The notes under the pieces: generated by a model
What the model saw: only the letters and a program-made list of their open reading frames with translations
Database searches by the model: none
Told to the model about the DNA's origin: nothing
Shown here: positions 29,351 to 64,000 of the stretch, in pieces
How positions within the stretch are numbered: the stretch's first letter is position 1
How the letters are laid out: every line of letters begins with the position of its first letter
Position numbers and translations under genes: made by a program
Assembly: GCA_023259055.1 (NCBI GenBank)
Contig: JAHFQZ010000001.1
Span: 186,001 to 250,000, forward strand
DNA from: Nitrosomonadales bacterium
GTDB taxonomy: Bacteria; Pseudomonadota; Gammaproteobacteria; Burkholderiales; Gallionellaceae
Reading direction: 5' to 3'
DNA length: 64,000 bases

Positions 29351-30682
29351 ATGCTCACAGCCGAACAGAACAAAACCCGTCAATTGAATGCAAATACTGC
29401 GCAATTAAACCCTGCATCTGCAGAGGAAGTCGGTAATTACAAAATTGTCCGTTTGCTGGGAAGCGGCGCGACCAGCAATGTTTACCTGGGGGTGGACAAA
29501 ACTTCCATGAAACTCGTTGCCATCAAGATGATACGCCCTGAATGCGCCATCGGCGTCCAGCACAAAATGTTCGCAATCGAGGCTTCACTCTGCGGAAAGT
29601 TACATCACCCGAACATCGTCGCACTTTACGATGCCAACAGCAGCGATGCGAGCAATTCCTACATAATCATGGAGTATGTGGAAGGCGAATCGCTGGAAGG
29701 TTATGCGTCTCCCGACAATCTCCTGCCTGTCAAAGCCGTGCTGGATGTCGTCAGGCAAGCTGCCGAAGCTTTGAATTACGCCTTCCAGATGGGCGTGATC
29801 CACCGCGATGTCAAACCGGCCAACATGCTGATGACGGAGGACGGACAGATCAAGCTGACCGATTTCGGCTGTGCCCTGCTCTATGACTCGGAAATGACGC
29901 AAATAACCGGGGCGGGCAGCCTTAGCTACATGTCGCCCGAGCAAATTTCCGGTATCGCGCTGAACCACCAGTCCGATATTTACTCGCTAGGGGCGGTGCT
30001 CTACCACCTGCTGACAGGGCATAGCACTTTCAATGCGTCAGACAATTATTCGGCAATACACCAGATCACCAATTACCCGCACATACCGATCGAATCGCGC
30101 CGCGTCGACCTTCCCAAGGAACTGTGCCGCATCGTGGATCACTCCCTGCAAAAGAACATTGCAGACCGCTATCAGGACTGGAAGGAATTTCTCAGCGATC
30201 TGTATGCAGCCTCGGGAATCATCAGGGATACAGGCCCGGCTGAGGAACAGGCACGGTTCGAATTGATGAGCCACTGCAGTTTCTTCAAGGATTTCCTCAC
30301 GGTGGAAATCTGGGAAGTATTGCGTGCCTCCCAGTGGCGCACCTTCGCGAGCAATGAACAGCTCATCAAGGAAGGCGAGCACGGCTTTTCTTTTTTCATC
30401 CTGCTGAAAGGCAACGTCGTGGTCTCCAAGAAACAGCGCATGCTCAATGTGATCAATGCCGGAGACTGCGTCGGGGAAAATGCCTGCCTGTACAAAGGCA
30501 GCCCGATCAGGGGCGCGACTGTCACGGCCCAGGGCGAAACTATTGCTTTGGAAATTTCAAAGAGTCAGCTGGAAAACTTCTCGAAAGAAGTATGCCTACG
30601 CATGGATCGCGCATTCCTCCGCTCCTTGAATGACAAACTGGCTGTTTCCAACTCGCGCGTATTGCAACTGATGGGTATTTAG
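29351..30682 (+). CDS. Ser/Thr protein kinase fused to a cyclic nucleotide-binding domain
   Basis: 443 residues. The kinase domain (about 28-290) is complete: glycine loop L-G-S-G-A-T-S-N-V, Lys59 in V-A-I-K, Glu77, H-R-D-V-K-P-A-N (Asp153, Asn158), D-F-G at 171-173, and S-P-E at 195-197. From about 308 to 425 there is a cNMP-binding fold (F-F-K-D-F-L, G-E-H-G-F-S-F-F-I-L-L-K-G, G-D-C-V-G-E-N-A). The phosphate-binding cassette is only partly conserved, so ligand binding is uncertain. There is no membrane segment. A nucleotide cyclase with a ferredoxin domain is encoded at 47150. Monocistronic and convergent with ccoS. Confidence 0.9.
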   Translation: MLTAEQNKTRQLNANTAQLNPASAEEVGNYKIVRLLGSGATSNVYLGVDKTSMKLVAIKMIRPECAIGVQHKMFAIEASLCGKLHHPNIVALYDANSSDASNSYIIMEYVEGESLEGYASPDNLLPVKAVLDVVRQAAEALNYAFQMGVIHRDVKPANMLMTEDGQIKLTDFGCALLYDSEMTQITGAGSLSYMSPEQISGIALNHQSDIYSLGAVLYHLLTGHSTFNASDNYSAIHQITNYPHIPIESRRVDLPKELCRIVDHSLQKNIADRYQDWKEFLSDLYAASGIIRDTGPAEEQARFELMSHCSFFKDFLTVEIWEVLRASQWRTFASNEQLIKEGEHGFSFFILLKGNVVVSKKQRMLNVINAGDCVGENACLYKGSPIRGATVTAQGETIALEISKSQLENFSKEVCLRMDRAFLRSLNDKLAVSNSRVLQLMGI

Positions 30683-47149: not shown

Positions 47150-48124
47150 TTGATTCGCCTCTTTGATCCGCTAGACTGTGCCGAAACGAACCGGGCCATT
47201 ATTCCCTTGCCTACCATCACTTACGTGCCGGACAACAAGAGCGTCGAATCGGAGGAAGGTGAAACCATCCTCCAGACCTCCTTGCGACTCGGTATTCCCC
47301 ATACGCACGTATGCGGTGGCAATGCACGCTGCTCCACCTGTCGCGTCATCATCCTGGATGGGCTGGAGAACTGCTCGCAGCGTAATAACCGGGAACAGGT
47401 ACTCGCCCATCGCCTGCGCTTCAGTCCGCAGATTCGTCTCGCCTGTCAGACTTCAATAAATGGTGACGTGACTTTGCGCCGCTTGGTGCTGGATGCAGAA
47501 GACGTGGAACTCACCAGCCAATTGACGCCGGACAAGACCCCCATCTCGGCTGGGGAAGAGCAGAAGATTGCCATTCTGTTTGCCGATATCCGTAAATTCA
47601 CTGCTTTTTCCGAATCTCTTCCACCTTACGATGTCATCCATGTGCTGAACCGCTATTTCGATCAAATGGGCAAGGTGATTAATCTGAACGGAGGGTACAT
47701 CGACAATTACATGGGCGATGGCCTGATGGCGTTATTTGGCGTCGACCATCCGCAGGAGTCTACGCTCAGCGCTGTAAGGGCCGGGCTGGGCATGCTCGAA
47801 GCAGTCGAACAACTCAGGGCCTATCTGGAAAACATTTACGGCATGAGTTTTCAAATCGGTATCGGTATACATTACGGAGAGATTGTGCTCGGCAGCATAG
47901 GCGCCAAAGATGCGCGGAGGATGACTGCAATAGGGGATGCGGTCAACCTCGCCAGCCGCGTTGAGCAGGCCAACAAGGAATATGGGACACAATTGCTGGT
48001 TTCCGAGCATGCCTATGATGAAGTTCGGCAACATGCCCGTGTCGGCCGAGAGTTCGCCGATACAGCCTTGAAGGGGAAAAGCGGCAAATACAAGCTATAT
48101 GAAATTGTCGGATTGAAAACCTGA
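47150..48124 (+). CDS. Class III nucleotide cyclase with N-terminal [2Fe-2S] ferredoxin domain
   Basis: 324 residues in two parts. Residues about 20-112 are a plant-type ferredoxin domain with Cys55, Cys61, Cys64 (C-G-G-N-A-R-C-S-T-C) and Cys99. Residues about 138-322 are a class III cyclase with metal Asp146 (F-A-D-I-R-K-F-T) and Asp190 (Y-M-G-D-G) and the transition-state pair in V-N-L-A-S-R. The adenine-selecting Lys usually seen before the second Asp reads Asn187, so ATP versus GTP preference is unsure. The start is TTG at 47150, possibly TTG at 47207; no strong ribosome site is visible. A redox-gated cyclase is the natural hypothesis. Confidence 0.87.
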   Translation: MIRLFDPLDCAETNRAIIPLPTITYVPDNKSVESEEGETILQTSLRLGIPHTHVCGGNARCSTCRVIILDGLENCSQRNNREQVLAHRLRFSPQIRLACQTSINGDVTLRRLVLDAEDVELTSQLTPDKTPISAGEEQKIAILFADIRKFTAFSESLPPYDVIHVLNRYFDQMGKVINLNGGYIDNYMGDGLMALFGVDHPQESTLSAVRAGLGMLEAVEQLRAYLENIYGMSFQIGIGIHYGEIVLGSIGAKDARRMTAIGDAVNLASRVEQANKEYGTQLLVSEHAYDEVRQHARVGREFADTALKGKSGKYKLYEIVGLKT

Positions 48125-57616: not shown

Positions 57617-57760
57617 ATGGAGTCATCCGATACTGGTAGTTTGAGAGTCCCCTTTCTGCAACAGATGTTGCAAAACAAATTTTTGTTATTGACCATGGTA
57701 CTGGCTGCTTCTGCAGCAGCTTACTTCTGCATGGGTCTTTATTTCTTGCTCAGCCATTAA
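57617..57760 (+). CDS. Small single-helix membrane protein, first gene of the NOR-like cluster
   Basis: 47 residues: M-E-S-S-D-T-G-S-L-R-V-P-F-L, then Q-Q-M-L-Q-N-K-F-L-L-L-T-M-V-L and a helix to L-S-H. GGGAGG precedes the ATG. It shares with the next small protein the plan of a Ser/Thr-rich start, an F-(L/M)-Q motif, and a single helix. Probable accessory subunit of the heme-copper enzyme. Too short for confident family assignment. Confidence 0.7.
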   Translation: MESSDTGSLRVPFLQQMLQNKFLLLTMVLAASAAAYFCMGLYFLLSH

Positions 57761-57934: not shown

Positions 57935-58090
57935 ATGTCAGAACCAACTTCAAGTGGTGCAAGCCCCCATTTTATGCAAAAAGCATTGGATAACCAGTGG
58001 CTTATGTTAGCCCTAGGTGTATTGACACCTATGGTGATTTATACGCTGTGGGGACTCTGGGACGTAATCAACATTCCGGTAGCTCCGTAG
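57935..58090 (+). CDS. Second small single-helix membrane protein of the NOR-like cluster
   Basis: 51 residues: M-S-E-P-T-S-S-G-A-S-P-H-F-M-Q-K-A-L-D-N-Q-W-L-M-L, followed by a helix (A-L-G-V-L-T-P-M-V-I-Y-T-L-W-G-L-W) and a short Pro-rich end. GGGAGGAG sits before the ATG. It lies 44 bases upstream of the CuA subunit gene. Its size and place fit the small helix subunits seen with B-type oxidases (for example subunit IIa of Thermus ba3), which is inference. Confidence 0.75.
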   Translation: MSEPTSSGASPHFMQKALDNQWLMLALGVLTPMVIYTLWGLWDVINIPVAP

Positions 58091-58134: not shown

Positions 58135-58692
58135 ATGGGAACGTCTTATACCCCCCCAACTAACCCAGACTGGTGGCGTGAACCCATCGAACGCACCGAG
58201 ATAGTCTGGATTGTGCTTGCTTTTGCATGGTGCATATTCATGTTCGTCTGGATGATCAGCTGGCACTGGATCGGAAATCAGAACATGCGAAACGAGGCCT
58301 ACAAAACTACACCTGAAAAGTATTCCAAGCATTTAGAGGAGCAGGCGGCGAAGTATTCCGTGCGCAAGGACGCAGCTACTGGTGAGGACGTCATAGCGCC
58401 GCCTCCCGGCAGCGATGTTTATCTGGCCGGTATGCAGTGGCAATGGCGCCCTATCCTTGAGTTGCAAAAAGGGAAAACATACCGTTTTCACTTGTCTTCC
58501 CTTGATGTGGGTCACGGGTTTTCGTTACAGCCTGAGAACATCAACTTTCAGGTCTATCCAGGCTACGAGCAAGTTCTTAACTTGACCCCGAACAAATCTG
58601 GCCAGTTCAGCATAGCGTGCGGTGAATACTGCGGTGGTGTTAATCAGCTTGGACATCACACGATGCTCGGCAGAATTTACGTAAAGGAGTAA
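58135..58692 (+). CDS. CuA-containing subunit II of a heme-copper oxidoreductase (NorS/CoxB-like)
   Basis: 185 residues: one N-terminal helix (about 22-46) and a periplasmic cupredoxin domain. CuA ligands are His127 (L-D-V-G-H-G-F), Cys162 and Cys166 (C-G-E-Y-C), His174 and Met177. Against the Thermus ba3 subunit II pattern C-x3-C-G-L-G-H-x2-M, the loop here holds four extra residues (C-G-G-V-N-Q-L-G-H-H-T-M). The C-terminal I-x-V-K-E is shared. Six bases before the catalytic subunit gene, so one transcript. It accepts electrons from a periplasmic cytochrome or copper protein. Confidence 0.88.
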   Translation: MGTSYTPPTNPDWWREPIERTEIVWIVLAFAWCIFMFVWMISWHWIGNQNMRNEAYKTTPEKYSKHLEEQAAKYSVRKDAATGEDVIAPPPGSDVYLAGMQWQWRPILELQKGKTYRFHLSSLDVGHGFSLQPENINFQVYPGYEQVLNLTPNKSGQFSIACGEYCGGVNQLGHHTMLGRIYVKE

Positions 58693-58697
58693 GAATA

Positions 58698-60407
58698 ATG
58701 GCGACAACAACAATGTCTGATTTTCGCATTGATCCGGTGTCCGGTCTCAAAATTAACAGGACGGCCAACAAGCTGGTTCAATGGAATGCGTTTGCAGCAG
58801 TAGTATTCTTGCTGGTTGGTGGGCTGTTCGGCCTCGGGGTAGCGCTTACCCGTATGCCGAGCGTGCAACTGCTCAGCCCGGAATGGTTCTATGTTGCTTT
58901 GACGGCTCACGGCTTGATTAATCTGGCGGTGTGGATCATTTTCTTTGAAATGGCCGTGTTGTATTTCCTGGGTGCGCATGTACTGGGTAACCGGTTGGCA
59001 ACACCGCGCTTTGCATGGGCACAGTTCTGGCTGATGCTCGTCGGCGCGGCCTTGGTCGCCGTGGCAGTGCTGAGTGGCAAGTCGAGCGTAATGATGACCT
59101 CATATCCGCCGCTTCAGGCACAACCGCACTTTTATCTGGGGTTGATCCTGTTTGCAGTGGGTGCTCTGATTGGTTGCTTTGTGTTCCTCGGCACGCTGGT
59201 GGTTGCCAAGAGAGAGAAAACCTATCAGGGATCTCTTCCGCTGGTTGTGTTCGGCGGCGTGACGGCTACTGTGATTGCCATTTTCACCCTCGTCTCTGGC
59301 GCGCTGATCCTGGTCCCGACTTTCTTCTGGTCGATAGGTCTGATCAGCCACATTGATCCCATGATGTACCGGGTTGTGTGGTGGGCGTTCGGTCACTCCT
59401 CGCAACAAATCAACGTGGTTACTCATATCTCCATCTGGTATCTCATAGCATCATTGGTATTCGGCGCAAAGCCAATGTCCGAGAAGGTAAGCCGTTTCGC
59501 GTTTCTGCTGTATATCCTGTTCCTGCAGCTGGGTTCTGTTCACCACCTGCTGTCTGATCCGGGATTGACTTCTGCCTGGAAGATATTCAATACCAGCTAC
59601 ATGATTTATCTGGCTGTGTTGGCCAGCATGATTCACGGATTGACGGTTCCTGGTTCCATTGAAGTAGCACAACGCAGGAAGGGGCTCGATACGGGCTTGT
59701 TTACCTGGCTTCGCAAGGCGCCTTGGGGTAACCCTATTTTCTCCGGCATGTTCCTGTCGCTGGTTGGTTTCGGTTTCATCGGCGGGATTACTGGCGTCGT
59801 GATGAGCGTGGAACAAATTAACATGATCATCCACAACACCATGTACCTGCCTGGCCATTTCCATGGCACCCTTGTAGCCGGTACTACCATGGCGTTCATG
59901 GCAGTTACTTATTGGCTGATCCCGGTGGTGTTTCAGCGCAAGATCGCCTTGCCAGGCGTGGCAAAATTGCAACCTTATGTCTTCAGCCTCGGTGTTTGGG
60001 TTTTCTCGATTGCCTTGATGGGTGCCGGTACTTTGGGTGTGCAACGCCGTCATGCGGATATTACCTTTGCCGGTCAACCGTTGGCTTATGAATATCCGGA
60101 AATCGCCAAGGGCTTGATGGACCTTGGTGAGATATTCGCTGTAATCATGGCGGTTGGTGCGATCATGTTTATCGTCGTTGTGCTGGCATCCATCTTTACG
60201 GGTGAGCGTATTCCGGAAGGTTCCGCACCATGGCCGAAAGTAGAAGATGCCGACGTTGTGGCTGAAAAAACTGGAAGGAAGCACATTGGTGTGTGGGGTA
60301 TGGAAGCACCGGGAACTTTTGTGTTGGCCTTGGTCTTGTTTGTAACTATCGTGCTGTACTACTTTATTAACTTTAAGTATTTGTCCACTGTATGGGGCAT
60401 GTCCTAA
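58698..60407 (+). CDS. B-type heme-copper catalytic subunit lacking the active-site tyrosine (NorY-like)
   Basis: 569 residues, about 13 helices. It keeps low-spin heme ligand His71, the metal-site histidines His233, His282 and His283 (G-H-S-S-Q-Q and V-H-H-L-L-S-D-P-G), and P-G-H-F-H with His387 and His389. In oxygen reductases of the A and B families the residue four after the first His is a cross-linked Tyr (G-H-P-x-V-Y). Here it is Gln237, preceded by Gln236. No Tyr occupies the C-family position (six before the His pair) either; that site is Leu. This and the gene order point to a nitric oxide reductase of the NorSY/sNOR kind. An oxygen reductase with another proton donor is the alternative. 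Confidence 0.88.
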   Translation: MATTTMSDFRIDPVSGLKINRTANKLVQWNAFAAVVFLLVGGLFGLGVALTRMPSVQLLSPEWFYVALTAHGLINLAVWIIFFEMAVLYFLGAHVLGNRLATPRFAWAQFWLMLVGAALVAVAVLSGKSSVMMTSYPPLQAQPHFYLGLILFAVGALIGCFVFLGTLVVAKREKTYQGSLPLVVFGGVTATVIAIFTLVSGALILVPTFFWSIGLISHIDPMMYRVVWWAFGHSSQQINVVTHISIWYLIASLVFGAKPMSEKVSRFAFLLYILFLQLGSVHHLLSDPGLTSAWKIFNTSYMIYLAVLASMIHGLTVPGSIEVAQRRKGLDTGLFTWLRKAPWGNPIFSGMFLSLVGFGFIGGITGVVMSVEQINMIIHNTMYLPGHFHGTLVAGTTMAFMAVTYWLIPVVFQRKIALPGVAKLQPYVFSLGVWVFSIALMGAGTLGVQRRHADITFAGQPLAYEYPEIAKGLMDLGEIFAVIMAVGAIMFIVVVLASIFTGERIPEGSAPWPKVEDADVVAEKTGRKHIGVWGMEAPGTFVLALVLFVTIVLYYFINFKYLSTVWGMS

Positions 60408-60645: not shown

Positions 60646-61509
60646 ATGATAGCAATCAAACAATATATTAATCTCTTCAAACTTCGAATAGGTTTCGTTA
60701 TTACGCTGGCCGCACTGGGCGGCATGGCAATTACCCCGGGGCACGCCCTGACAAGCTGGCAAGTTCTGGTTCTGTCGCTGACGGTTATGATGGCCTCTGC
60801 AGCCGCAGGAGCTTTCAACCAATACTTTGAACGCGATATCGATGCAAAAATGGCGCGTACAAATAACCGCCCTTTTGTAAACGGTTTTCTTCAGCATGGC
60901 CGCAAGTGGTTAGTGATAATCGGGGCAATGCTTGCGGTTGCGGTAATATCCGCTGCATTTGCGTTTAATGCGATGACTGCACTGAACATATTCCTCGGTG
61001 CGTTTACCTACGCAATTGTTTATACGGCCTGGCTGAAACGGCGCACTTGGTTGAATATTGTGTTTGGTGGATTGGCGGGAAGCTTTGCAGTGCTTGCTGG
61101 TGCGGCAGCTGTCGATCCTTCGTTTGGTCCGCTTCCCGGACTGCTGGCATTAGTGCTTTTCCTGTGGACCCCTCCGCATTTCTGGAGCTTGGCCATAGTC
61201 ATTCGCGATCAATACGCTGCAGCTGGAGTGCCTATGCTGCCGGTGATAAAGGGCGACAAGAAAGCGGCACGCATTATTTTGGGACACACCATCCTCCTCG
61301 TATTAGTTTCCCTTATGCCCGGGTTTTACGGCTTGGGTTGGATTTATCTAACCGGAGCTTTCTTGGGTGGAGCTTATTTCATTATCAAGAGCGTCCAGCT
61401 ACTGAACAATCCCACGAAACAAGCGGCTATGGCCAATTTCTATGCATCACTGATACATTTTAGTGTGTTGATGGTCGCTCTGATGTTGGAAGTTAATTTC
61501 GCTGTCTGA
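60646..61509 (+). CDS. ctaB: Protoheme IX farnesyltransferase (heme O synthase)
   Basis: UbiA-family membrane enzyme with 287 residues and about nine helices. The polyprenyl-PP-binding motif N-Q-Y-F-E-R-D-I-D-A-K-M-A-R-T is present, with the second Asp-rich region near V-I-K-G-D-K-K-A-A. Makes heme O, which the CtaA paralogues at 41433 and 43266 could turn into heme A. Its place in this cluster suggests that the HCO carries heme O or A. A strong terminator follows. Confidence 0.94.
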   Translation: MIAIKQYINLFKLRIGFVITLAALGGMAITPGHALTSWQVLVLSLTVMMASAAAGAFNQYFERDIDAKMARTNNRPFVNGFLQHGRKWLVIIGAMLAVAVISAAFAFNAMTALNIFLGAFTYAIVYTAWLKRRTWLNIVFGGLAGSFAVLAGAAAVDPSFGPLPGLLALVLFLWTPPHFWSLAIVIRDQYAAAGVPMLPVIKGDKKAARIILGHTILLVLVSLMPGFYGLGWIYLTGAFLGGAYFIIKSVQLLNNPTKQAAMANFYASLIHFSVLMVALMLEVNFAV

Positions 61510-61719: not shown

Positions 61720-62619
61720 ATGCGCCACTATTTTTTACATCTGGGTTTGGCGGTTCTTTTATCTGCGGCGATGCCCTCCCTGTCGCAAGATATCGGTAAC
61801 AGTGGTGTGCAGATGTACAACGCCTCTGTTGCAGCAGCAAAGCTTCCAGCTCCGCAGAAAAAAGAAAATACGCCCGTCCAGGTTTTTGATGAAAAAGAAG
61901 TTCTGAAAATAAGCCAGAGTGCGATAGGCAATCAACTTGGCGATTACACCTTCACTGATCGAAGTGGGCACATTGTGCGTTTGTCCGATTACCGAGGCAA
62001 GCCACTGGTTATCAGCATGATTTATACCCACTGCCCAATTATCTGCACGGCTACTACGCGCAGCTTAAGCGCGCTGAAGTTGTCTCAAGATGCTTTGGGA
62101 ACTGACAGCTTTGGTGTATTGACAGTCGGTTTTGATACTGAAAATGATACGCCGGAAGCGATGGGGGATTTTGCCAAACGAGTGGATGTAAATCTGCCCA
62201 ACTGGAAATTCGTCAGCGCCGACCCGGATACGATTAAACATCTGAGCAAAGATTTAGGATTTGTTTTTTTTCCAACAGCCGAGGGTGGTTTCAATCACAT
62301 CACGCAAACCACCTACATTGATGGACAGGGTAAGGTTTATCTCCATGTCTACGGGGATGAGCTTGATAACAAGACGCTGCTGCAGCCCTTGAAGGATATG
62401 ATTTACAACATCAAGGTGGCAGAGCCGGGGCTTGCTGGCCTGTCAAATAAGGTGCGGCTCTTTTGTACCGTTTATGATGCAAAAACGGGAACATACAGGA
62501 CAGATTATAGTTATTTTTATGGGATTGGCTTGGGCGTTCTTGTTTCATTGCTCATTACTTCATGGATTGTAATTGAATATCGCCGTAGCCCGAAACGTAA
62601 CTACCCAAACCATGGTTAA
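61720..62619 (+). CDS. senC: SCO1/SenC-family copper chaperone
   Basis: 299 residues. A signal sequence (MRHYFLHLGLAVLLSAAMPSLS) precedes a thioredoxin-like SCO domain with the copper site C-P-I-I-C and the distal His in F-N-H-I-T-Q. Unlike standard SCO it also has a C-terminal helix (Y-G-I-G-L-G-V-L-V-S-L-L-I) after an extra about 80-residue segment. It probably loads CuA of the subunit at 58135. In ammonia oxidisers a senC gene follows norSY. The start is the ATG at 61720, without a strong ribosome site. Confidence 0.88.
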   Translation: MRHYFLHLGLAVLLSAAMPSLSQDIGNSGVQMYNASVAAAKLPAPQKKENTPVQVFDEKEVLKISQSAIGNQLGDYTFTDRSGHIVRLSDYRGKPLVISMIYTHCPIICTATTRSLSALKLSQDALGTDSFGVLTVGFDTENDTPEAMGDFAKRVDVNLPNWKFVSADPDTIKHLSKDLGFVFFPTAEGGFNHITQTTYIDGQGKVYLHVYGDELDNKTLLQPLKDMIYNIKVAEPGLAGLSNKVRLFCTVYDAKTGTYRTDYSYFYGIGLGVLVSLLITSWIVIEYRRSPKRNYPNHG

Positions 62620-62682: not shown

Positions 62683-64000
62683 ATGATTAAACTCATGCAA
62701 CGAATCGGGCAGAGTATTTTTTTGCGTCTTGAGAGCGCGCTCAATGGCATTTTTGGACCTGCATTGAATCCGTTTTATCAACTGGGCGCGATTGCCTATT
62801 TGATGTTCTGGATCATCGTAGTAAGCGGTTTTTATATATATGCTTTTTACGATACCGGCGTGGAAGAAGCTTACAATTCGGTGGAGCGCCTAACCAACAA
62901 TCAGTGGTATCTGGGCGGCATAATGCGCAGCCTGCATCGCTATGCTTCCGATGGAATGTTACTGGTTGGCGTTTTGCACATGCTGCGCAGCTTTGTCTTT
63001 GACCGCTTCCGAGACTTCCGGTGGTTTTCATGGTTTACGGGAGTCACATTACTGTGGCTGATTTATATTGCCGGTATAAACGGCTACTGGCTGGTTTGGG
63101 ATCGCCTGGCACAATTTCTTGCCGTTGCAAGCGCTGAATGGCTGGATTACCTGCCGATTTTTAGTGCTCCTTTGGCGCGCAATTTTTTGGAGCTGGGCAG
63201 CGTGAATGATCGCTTCTTTTCGCTACTTTCGTTAATTCATATTGGTGTTCCGCTGGGTGTTTTTGGGCTCATCTGGATTCACACCCAGCGCGTTCCGCAG
63301 GCCAAGACATCCACACCCAAACCGCTCACGATTGGATTGATCCTGTCGATGATCGCGCTTTCCTTGATTCATCCTGCATTGAGCCAGGGACATGGCGATC
63401 TGAATTCCGTGCCGTTTGTTCTGAACCTGGACTGGTTCTATTTGTGGGCATTCCCACTGCTTTATTCCTGGGGGGCGGCCAAGGTGTGGGCCTTGTCAGG
63501 GGGCTTTACCGTCCTGATCTTGTTGTTGCCATTCCTGGGACGATCCAAACGCGGCAGGGGTGAGTATGAGATTATCCCTTTCCCTTCAGGCCATGCGGTG
63601 ATTGCCCGAAGCGGCGAAACCATACTTGAGGCTGCGCTACGCCAAGGCATGGATATGCCTTATGTTTGCCGTGACGGAGCATGCGGCGTATGCAAGGGAA
63701 AAATATTGAAAGGCTCGGTCGACTATGGCATTTACCAGAAAGATGTGCTTACCGATGCAGAAAAAGCCGAGGGCAAGGCCCTGTTCTGCTGCGCCAAGCC
63801 GCTTTCTGATTTGGAAATAGAGAGCAATGAGGTCATCGGCCCAGGTCGATTCCCTGTAAGAACAATGAAGTTCAGGGTGAAGAAAATGGTACGGGCGGCG
63901 CCGGATGTGATGCTGCTTGAATTGCGCCCCGAAGGCGATGAACGGATGGATTTTGCTGCCGGCCAGTATATCGCCGTACATTTGGACGATGGCTCCAAAC
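62683..64000 (+). CDS. Cytochrome b fused to [2Fe-2S] ferredoxin and flavin reductase domains (cut by window edge)
   Basis: 439 residues lie in the window. Residues about 30-285 are a cytochrome b6/bc-type membrane domain with two His pairs at 14-residue spacing: His85/His99 and His186/His200, giving two b hemes. Residues about 294-380 are a plant-type ferredoxin with Cys329, Cys334, Cys337 and Cys369 (C-R-D-G-A-C-G-V-C). From about 390 an FAD/NAD(P) reductase-like barrel begins (F-R-V-K-K-M, A-G-Q-Y-I-A-V-H-L). Such a fusion could pass electrons between the quinone pool and NAD(P)H. The start at 62683 lacks a clear ribosome site; ATG 62695 is the alternative. The C-terminus is outside the window. 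Confidence 0.85.
   Translation, partial: MIKLMQRIGQSIFLRLESALNGIFGPALNPFYQLGAIAYLMFWIIVVSGFYIYAFYDTGVEEAYNSVERLTNNQWYLGGIMRSLHRYASDGMLLVGVLHMLRSFVFDRFRDFRWFSWFTGVTLLWLIYIAGINGYWLVWDRLAQFLAVASAEWLDYLPIFSAPLARNFLELGSVNDRFFSLLSLIHIGVPLGVFGLIWIHTQRVPQAKTSTPKPLTIGLILSMIALSLIHPALSQGHGDLNSVPFVLNLDWFYLWAFPLLYSWGAAKVWALSGGFTVLILLLPFLGRSKRGRGEYEIIPFPSGHAVIARSGETILEAALRQGMDMPYVCRDGACGVCKGKILKGSVDYGIYQKDVLTDAEKAEGKALFCCAKPLSDLEIESNEVIGPGRFPVRTMKFRVKKMVRAAPDVMLLELRPEGDERMDFAAGQYIAVHLDDGSK

Follow-up and report, generated by a model that had tools for sequence, protein, structure and literature searches.

A cytochrome b-ferredoxin-flavin reductase fusion encoded in an eNOR-type nitric oxide reductase operon of a Gallionellaceae bacterium

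The fusion gene and its domains

We analysed a stretch of 64,000 nucleotides (the window; G000:C4:186001-250000) from the genome of a Nitrosomonadales bacterium of the family Gallionellaceae, hereafter the host. At its end, an open reading frame (ORF) joins a cytochrome b, a [2Fe-2S] ferredoxin and a flavin reductase in one chain. The gene runs 623 bases beyond the window (stop codon included), to G000:C4:250623, and is complete in locus L005 (4683-6623), where it encodes a protein of 646 aa (P0001). The fusion belongs to an operon for a nitric oxide reductase (NOR) of the eNOR type. It consists of known domains in a new order, and eNOR itself was already known; the partnership of eNOR with a cytochrome b is a more important finding than the domain order. 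The features of the fusion within the window are the following.

62683..64000, + strand: cytochrome b - [2Fe-2S] - FAD/NAD(P) fusion gene, residues 1-439 of 646 (439 codons, ORF open at the window end)
62758..63285, + strand: cytochrome b N-terminal (b6-like) domain, Pfam residues 26-201, with PDB profile matches to cytochrome b6 and bc1 cytochrome b
62935..62937, + strand: His85, predicted heme b ligand, helix B
62977..62979, + strand: His99, predicted heme b ligand, helix B
63238..63240, + strand: His186, predicted heme b ligand, helix D
63280..63282, + strand: His200, predicted heme b ligand, helix D
63319..63534, + strand: helices E and F, subunit-IV-like, about residues 213-284, from the structure model
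63430..63435, + strand: Asp250-Trp251, equivalent of the PEWY/PDWY loop
63586..63801, + strand: [2Fe-2S] ferredoxin domain, Pfam residues 302-373, with Cys329, 334, 337 and 369
63874..64000, + strand: FAD-binding domain, start only, Pfam residues 398-489

All four Pfam matches of P0001 exceeded the curated cut-offs, namely Cytochrome_B (residues 26-201; 1.8e-18), Fer2 (302-373; 1.8e-15), FAD_binding_6 (398-489; 3.9e-15) and NAD_binding_1 (502-604; 1.3e-18). A preliminary description of the window had proposed a cytochrome b with two His pairs for b hemes, a ferredoxin and a flavin reductase following each other without a stop, had expected an NAD(P) domain past position 64000 and knew of no named family with this order. 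The complete gene bears this out: the NAD domain lies wholly beyond the window end, and both pairs (H85/H99 and H186/H200) were invariant in an alignment of 22 full-length proteins, that of the host and 21 homologues at 47-77% identity to it. No NCBIfam model above its cut-off covers the chain and no named family was found; a literature search likewise found no report of this fusion.

With the cytochrome domain of the fusion as query, 494 relatives were listed, and the 80 best-scoring named loci were examined; because of this query, these 80 are enriched for fusions. The fusion was intact and in a single frame in 78 of the 80 and split in the other two (L165 and L217). The join is therefore not an assembly artefact, a possibility that the preliminary description had allowed for, and the fusion is real and complete.

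The profile of the cytochrome part gave its best match with cytochrome b6 (1.3e-30), and some alignments with bc1 cytochrome b spanned residues 27-292. Residues from about 213 to 284, absent from the preliminary description, resemble the start of the C-terminal half of cytochrome b (helices E and F). The corresponding segment of one homologue (L048) passed PF00032 with 21.4 bits (cut-off 20.7), and that of the host fusion gave no match with this family. Asp250-Trp251 were invariant in the 22 aligned proteins and aligned with the PDWY of Deinococcus cytochrome b, so that the PEWY-like loop of the fusion reads xDW[FY]. The GYxLPWD-type loop was also conserved, as G[YF]xLxWD (GYWLVWD in the host). 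Because both loops are kept, a quinone pocket on the positive, periplasmic side of the membrane (p side) is plausible. The fusion is without helix G. The cysteine that serves heme cn in cytochrome b6 is replaced across the 22 proteins by Tyr, His, Gln or Arg. No ferric reductase domain was found, the membrane part matching solely cytochrome b/b6 families (Pfam, E ≤ 0.001). The structure model of the fusion is of middling confidence (pLDDT 73.7). The helix count and the positive charges suggest that the reductase half is cytoplasmic.

In the reductase half, C329, C334, C337 and C369 of the ferredoxin domain, as well as R440, S443, C596 and G597 of the flavin/NAD domains, were invariant in the same alignment. 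The domain order, the Cys cluster and the flavin motifs are those of the Fer2-FAD_binding_6-NAD_binding_1 superfamily, and GcoB (the best PDB match) and related oxygenase reductases are nearest to it. Known relatives in this reductase family run toward NAD(P)H oxidation. The BenC equivalog (NF040810) was rejected as a name for the fusion, which scored 185 bits vs. a cut-off of 430.

The eNOR operon

Upstream of the fusion, the host carries genes for a CuA subunit, a heme-copper subunit, heme O synthase and SCO; downstream of it lie P0002, P0003 and, 0.35 kb further on, a sister cytochrome b (P0004).

57617-57760: 47-aa one-helix protein before the CuA subunit
57935..58090, + strand: protein of 51 aa with one helix, encoded before the CuA subunit; probably a small subunit, judging from its sequence
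58135..58692, + strand: CuA-type subunit II of an eNOR-like reductase (P0005), with weak matches to oxidase subunit II models
58698..60407, + strand: eNOR-like heme-copper subunit I (P0006), GHSSQQ motif
60646..61509, + strand: heme O synthase CtaB/CyoE (P0007)
61720..62619, + strand: SCO1/SenC-family protein (P0008), start codon chosen by us
L005:6616-7143: P0002, 175-aa membrane-anchored protein, modelled as one N-terminal helix and a beta-sandwich
L005:7082-8560: P0003, heme-copper oxidase paralogue
L005:8905-10482: P0004, sister cytochrome b with a 4Fe-4S dicluster and FlpD/MvhD

A short hydrophobic ORF was found upstream of the CuA subunit in 79 of the 85 loci checked, most of those displayed being alike, and the 51-aa protein of the host may be a counterpart of the small subunit in ba3 oxidase. 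P0005 gave no Pfam match and carries CuA-like Cys, His and Met residues. P0006 is nearest to ba3-type oxidases, but HSSQQ replaces HPVVY. The GHSSQQ motif was present in 83 of 86 subunit I sequences longer than 500 aa, the remaining three falling outside the search pattern, and the CuB histidines H233, H282 and H283 were invariant in 23 sequences. According to the available text of the eNOR study (PMC8756737), the hallmarks of eNOR operons are a Gln in place of the cross-linked Tyr of subunit I and a cupredoxin as subunit II. Judged by this Gln, the CuB histidines and the cupredoxin subunit II, the sequences of P0005 and P0006 are of the eNOR type.

P0002 had no Pfam match at E ≤ 0.001, and of the 50 matches listed for its model none was to a Rieske protein or a cupredoxin. 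Across 152 sequences, C54 and C77 were kept in 150, H46 in 145 and H124 in 148. In 89 aligned sequences of P0003, the heme-ligand-like residues H107, H254, H384 and H386 were kept in 88-89, and no conserved adjacent His pair for CuB was present. FlpD, which P0004 carries, is known from partners of the heterodisulfide reductase type. Among the eight operon proteins scanned, to which this search was confined, no Rieske or c-type cytochrome family (c1/f included) was found.

The gene set recurs across many families of the host's order. The 78 loci with an intact fusion, some of which come from the same genomes as other loci examined, contained eNOR subunit I in 68 cases, subunit II in 63, SCO in 72, P0002 in 74, P0003 in 68, CtaB in 64 and the FlpD sister in 59. 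The full set of seven genes (subunits I and II, SCO, the fusion, P0002, P0003 and the FlpD sister) was present in 54 of them. No partner gene was present in L215 or in L183, which is a 5.2 kb contig; many of the shortfalls are short contigs or contig edges.

Co-occurrence with denitrification genes

Among 250 genomes of the host's order, eNOR subunit I (E ≤ 1e-120) and the fusion were each found in 19, and both together in 18 (Fisher p = 3e-25; this and the following p values ignore phylogeny). G035 has eNOR without the fusion, and G176, a 580-contig assembly, the fusion without eNOR. NirS (at least 480 bits) was present in 18/19 fusion carriers vs. 10/50 non-carriers of the order (p = 1.2e-8); within the host genus (at least 420 bits), it was present in 10/11 carriers, one of them with a split fusion copy, vs. 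1/14 non-carriers (p = 3.5e-5). NirK showed no association with the fusion. In 18 of 112 loci, overlapping genomes included, nirS lies inside the examined stretch, and in L060 and L063 it stands between the fusion and the P0003/FlpD end of the eNOR operon.

Canonical NOR was found in 8 of the 27 NirS-bearing carriers, as compared to all 11 NirS-bearing non-carriers (p = 1.3e-4); in other words, 19 of 27 vs. none of 11 are without a detectable canonical NOR. The host itself has NirS on G000:C3 and no canonical NOR match. RuBisCO was no commoner in carriers (9/19, eight full and one partial) than in controls (20/50; p = 0.60). True RuBisCO was missing from the other 10 carriers, six of which show only weaker matches (66-222 bits) that we read as RuBisCO-like proteins.

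Distribution and trees

Relatives of the cytochrome b were found in 34 of 369 genomes at class level and in 33 of 299 at phylum level, the host being counted in both. Among 59 loci from these searches (L079-L137, which leave out a few weaker matches), 56 are FlpD types, the host and L080 have the fusion in full, and L088 is truncated, so that it counts with neither group. The FlpD sister is thus the wide, phylum-level form; on a Defluviimonas plasmid it stands behind eNOR, cyoE and SCO. Beyond the host's order, fusions were found in G354 (same class), L215 (Sulfuricaulis) and L211 (Muproteobacteria).

In phylogenetic trees, the reductase halves of 29 fusions were split from 10 stand-alone reductases with support of 100/99, and the cytochrome halves of 30 fusions from 45 FlpD types with support of 86/81. 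The trees fit one origin of the fusion. G046 and G124 carry the fusion without the FlpD type, G035 and the Defluviimonas locus the FlpD type without the fusion. It is as if two cytoplasmic electron plugs could serve one system.

Three other ORFs were noted by eye. In the window, 47150-48124 combines an N-terminal [2Fe-2S] ferredoxin domain with a nucleotide cyclase-like domain, and in 29351-30682 a Ser/Thr protein kinase domain precedes a cyclic-nucleotide-binding-like domain. In G354, a DsrA-like ORF (L219:12223-13569) lies directly downstream of the eNOR/FlpD cluster.

Discussion

The cytochrome part of the fusion resembles cytochrome b6 with subunit IV (b6f) and bc1 cytochrome b in its predicted bis-His hemes on helices B and D, in its G[YF]xLxWD loop and in a helix E-loop-helix F segment with an acidic-Trp motif. 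Unlike these, it is without helix G and the heme cn cysteine, its chain continues into a ferredoxin-reductase, and no Rieske protein or cytochrome c1/f accompanies it among the operon proteins scanned. The reductase half shares domain order and motifs with reductases of the BenC, GcoB and T4moF type, whereas a membrane cytochrome b stands where those have an oxygenase partner. In its working, the fusion would recall NOX/DUOX and ferric reductases, in which electrons pass from NAD(P)H and FAD to two b hemes across the membrane; unlike theirs, its heme module is cytochrome b6-like, with no ferric reductase domain match. A further likeness is with the anammox Rieske/cytochrome b complexes of Kuenenia, which, in the available text (PMC12954380), have a b6-like cytochrome b with a subunit IV-like part, a cytoplasmic NAD(P) module and a tie to N-oxides. 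Those complexes are built from several subunits, including a Rieske protein and multiheme cytochromes c, and probably contain 4Fe-4S/3Fe-4S clusters (PMC12954380), whereas the fusion is one chain with a [2Fe-2S] (Fer2) domain, and the Rieske protein, the 4Fe-4S NAD(P) subunit and multiheme c were not among the operon proteins scanned. The accessible parts of the eNOR literature, a scope outside which the survey of Murali et al. (2024) lies, contain no mention that we found of cytochrome b-FNR or cytochrome b-FlpD partners.

Our preferred reading, to which we give about an even chance, is that the fusion is a membrane-bound, NAD(P)H-oxidising conduit and one module of an eNOR-type NO reductase system. 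In this role it probably couples the removal of nitric oxide in denitrification to the NAD(P)H pool of the cell. With cofactor content, topology, direction and p-side acceptor as we infer them, NAD(P)H would pass a hydride to FAD, and single electrons would move from there through the fused [2Fe-2S] cluster, first to the heme b on the cytoplasmic side and then to that on the periplasmic side. They would exit there, either via a quinone pocket, as the G[YF]xLxWD and xDWFY loops suggest, or through contact with p-side partners from the same operon, and would supply the CuA/heme-copper eNOR for the reduction of NO. In the sister cytochrome b-4Fe-4S-FlpD, the same conduit would have a different cytoplasmic plug. 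NAD(P)H input is the preferred direction; known members of the reductase family work in this sense. The preliminary description had suggested, as one option, that the fusion supplies electrons to the NOR-like enzyme, and had proposed a search for the same domain order and its neighbours in other genomes; the 78 intact fusions with their recurring eNOR gene set, the co-occurrence with eNOR in 18 of 19 carriers and that with NirS support this option.

Several observations weigh against such a conduit. No p-side electron exit was identified, and NADH electrons delivered to the periplasm would not pass through complex I. In L215 (a 12.8 kb stretch with 0.9 kb downstream) the fusion is away from the operon, and in G354 (a 19.9 kb stretch) it lies apart from the eNOR genes, which sit elsewhere beside the FlpD type. 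G016 has the fusion without NirS. Canonical NOR is also possessed by 9 of 29 carriers, and 5 of the 19 NirS-bearing carriers without it (G005, G015, G017, G149 and G193) are less than 90% complete. Finally, the support for the split between the cytochromes b of fusions and FlpD types is moderate.

The fusion might instead be an NAD(P)H:quinone oxidoreductase that reduces quinone at a pocket on the p side or on the opposite, negative side (n side) and feeds eNOR indirectly, via the quinone pool and cytochrome c. The b6/bc1-like core and the copies away from the operon agree with this, which we consider unlikely, since it leaves the near-perfect link to one NOR type unexplained by itself.

Electron bifurcation seems to us rather unlikely. 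Quinol would be oxidised at the p-side pocket, one electron going to eNOR and NO and the other up the hemes b to the [2Fe-2S] cluster, FAD and NAD(P)H. The reduction of NO would thereby drive the formation of NAD(P)H, a coupling that has been proposed for the anammox Rieske/cytochrome b complexes. Equivalents of the two quinol-pocket loops can be recognised in the fusion, the NAD(P) module is probably on the n side, and the tie to an N-oxide reductase is tight. With generally known potentials, the overall energetics are favourable with NO as acceptor, even from ubiquinol; by the same arithmetic, ubiquinol requires a first acceptor near +500 mV. Against it, none of the operon proteins scanned matched a Rieske or c-type cytochrome family, the P0002 model is a plain beta-sandwich without Rieske or cupredoxin resemblance in its listed matches, and known relatives of the reductase half work toward NAD(P)H oxidation. 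The available text on the Kuenenia complexes, with their NAD(P) oxidoreductases, offers a precedent (PMC12954380). A particular form, which we hold to be quite doubtful, is a single-chain cytochrome b that works without a Rieske protein and splits the electrons of quinol between eNOR and NAD(P)+ by bifurcation, with the CuB-less paralogue P0003 as the high-potential branch; NO respiration would then directly make NAD(P)H, and the FlpD sister low-potential iron-sulfur electrons.

It is very unlikely that the fusion serves eNOR maturation by using NAD(P)H to reduce periplasmic thiols or copper on behalf of SCO/CuA and P0002: SCO, CtaB and the two-cysteine P0002 do share its operon, but SCO and CtaB adjoin many oxidases without such a reductase, and two different electron plugs would be hard to explain. 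Least probable is the other suggestion of the preliminary description, reverse electron flow from quinol or cytochrome to NAD(P)+ in a chemolithotroph, here taken to serve carbon fixation, which the RuBisCO of the host and its closest named relatives (metagenome-assembled genomes (MAGs) of Gallionella, a group of iron oxidisers) would suit, but which is not supported, since RuBisCO is not associated with the fusion and a plain path from quinol would run about 0.4 V uphill in generally known redox potentials and, the NAD(P) site being on the cytoplasmic side, against the membrane potential.

The finding bears on Candidatus Ferrigenium straubiae, a nitrate-reducing iron oxidiser that, in the available text of PMC12622760, is said to be without canonical nor and to need neighbours for NO removal. 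Its MAG KS03 (L158) carries the whole eNOR/cytochrome b operon, and complete operons were also found in the Ferrigenium MAGs L148 (F. bremense) and L160 (F. altingense). A pangenome paper of 2023 reports eNOR in 4 of 6 narGH-bearing genomes, a set including two MAGs of the KS culture, and its available text contains no mention that we found of cytochrome b partners (PMC10734462). If our reading is true, a widespread, unnamed redox system links NAD(P)H to NO reduction, or makes NAD(P)H from it, in NirS-type denitrifiers where searches find no textbook NO reductase, and the operon in KS03 would change the open question of whether Ca. F. straubiae depends on its neighbours for the removal of NO.
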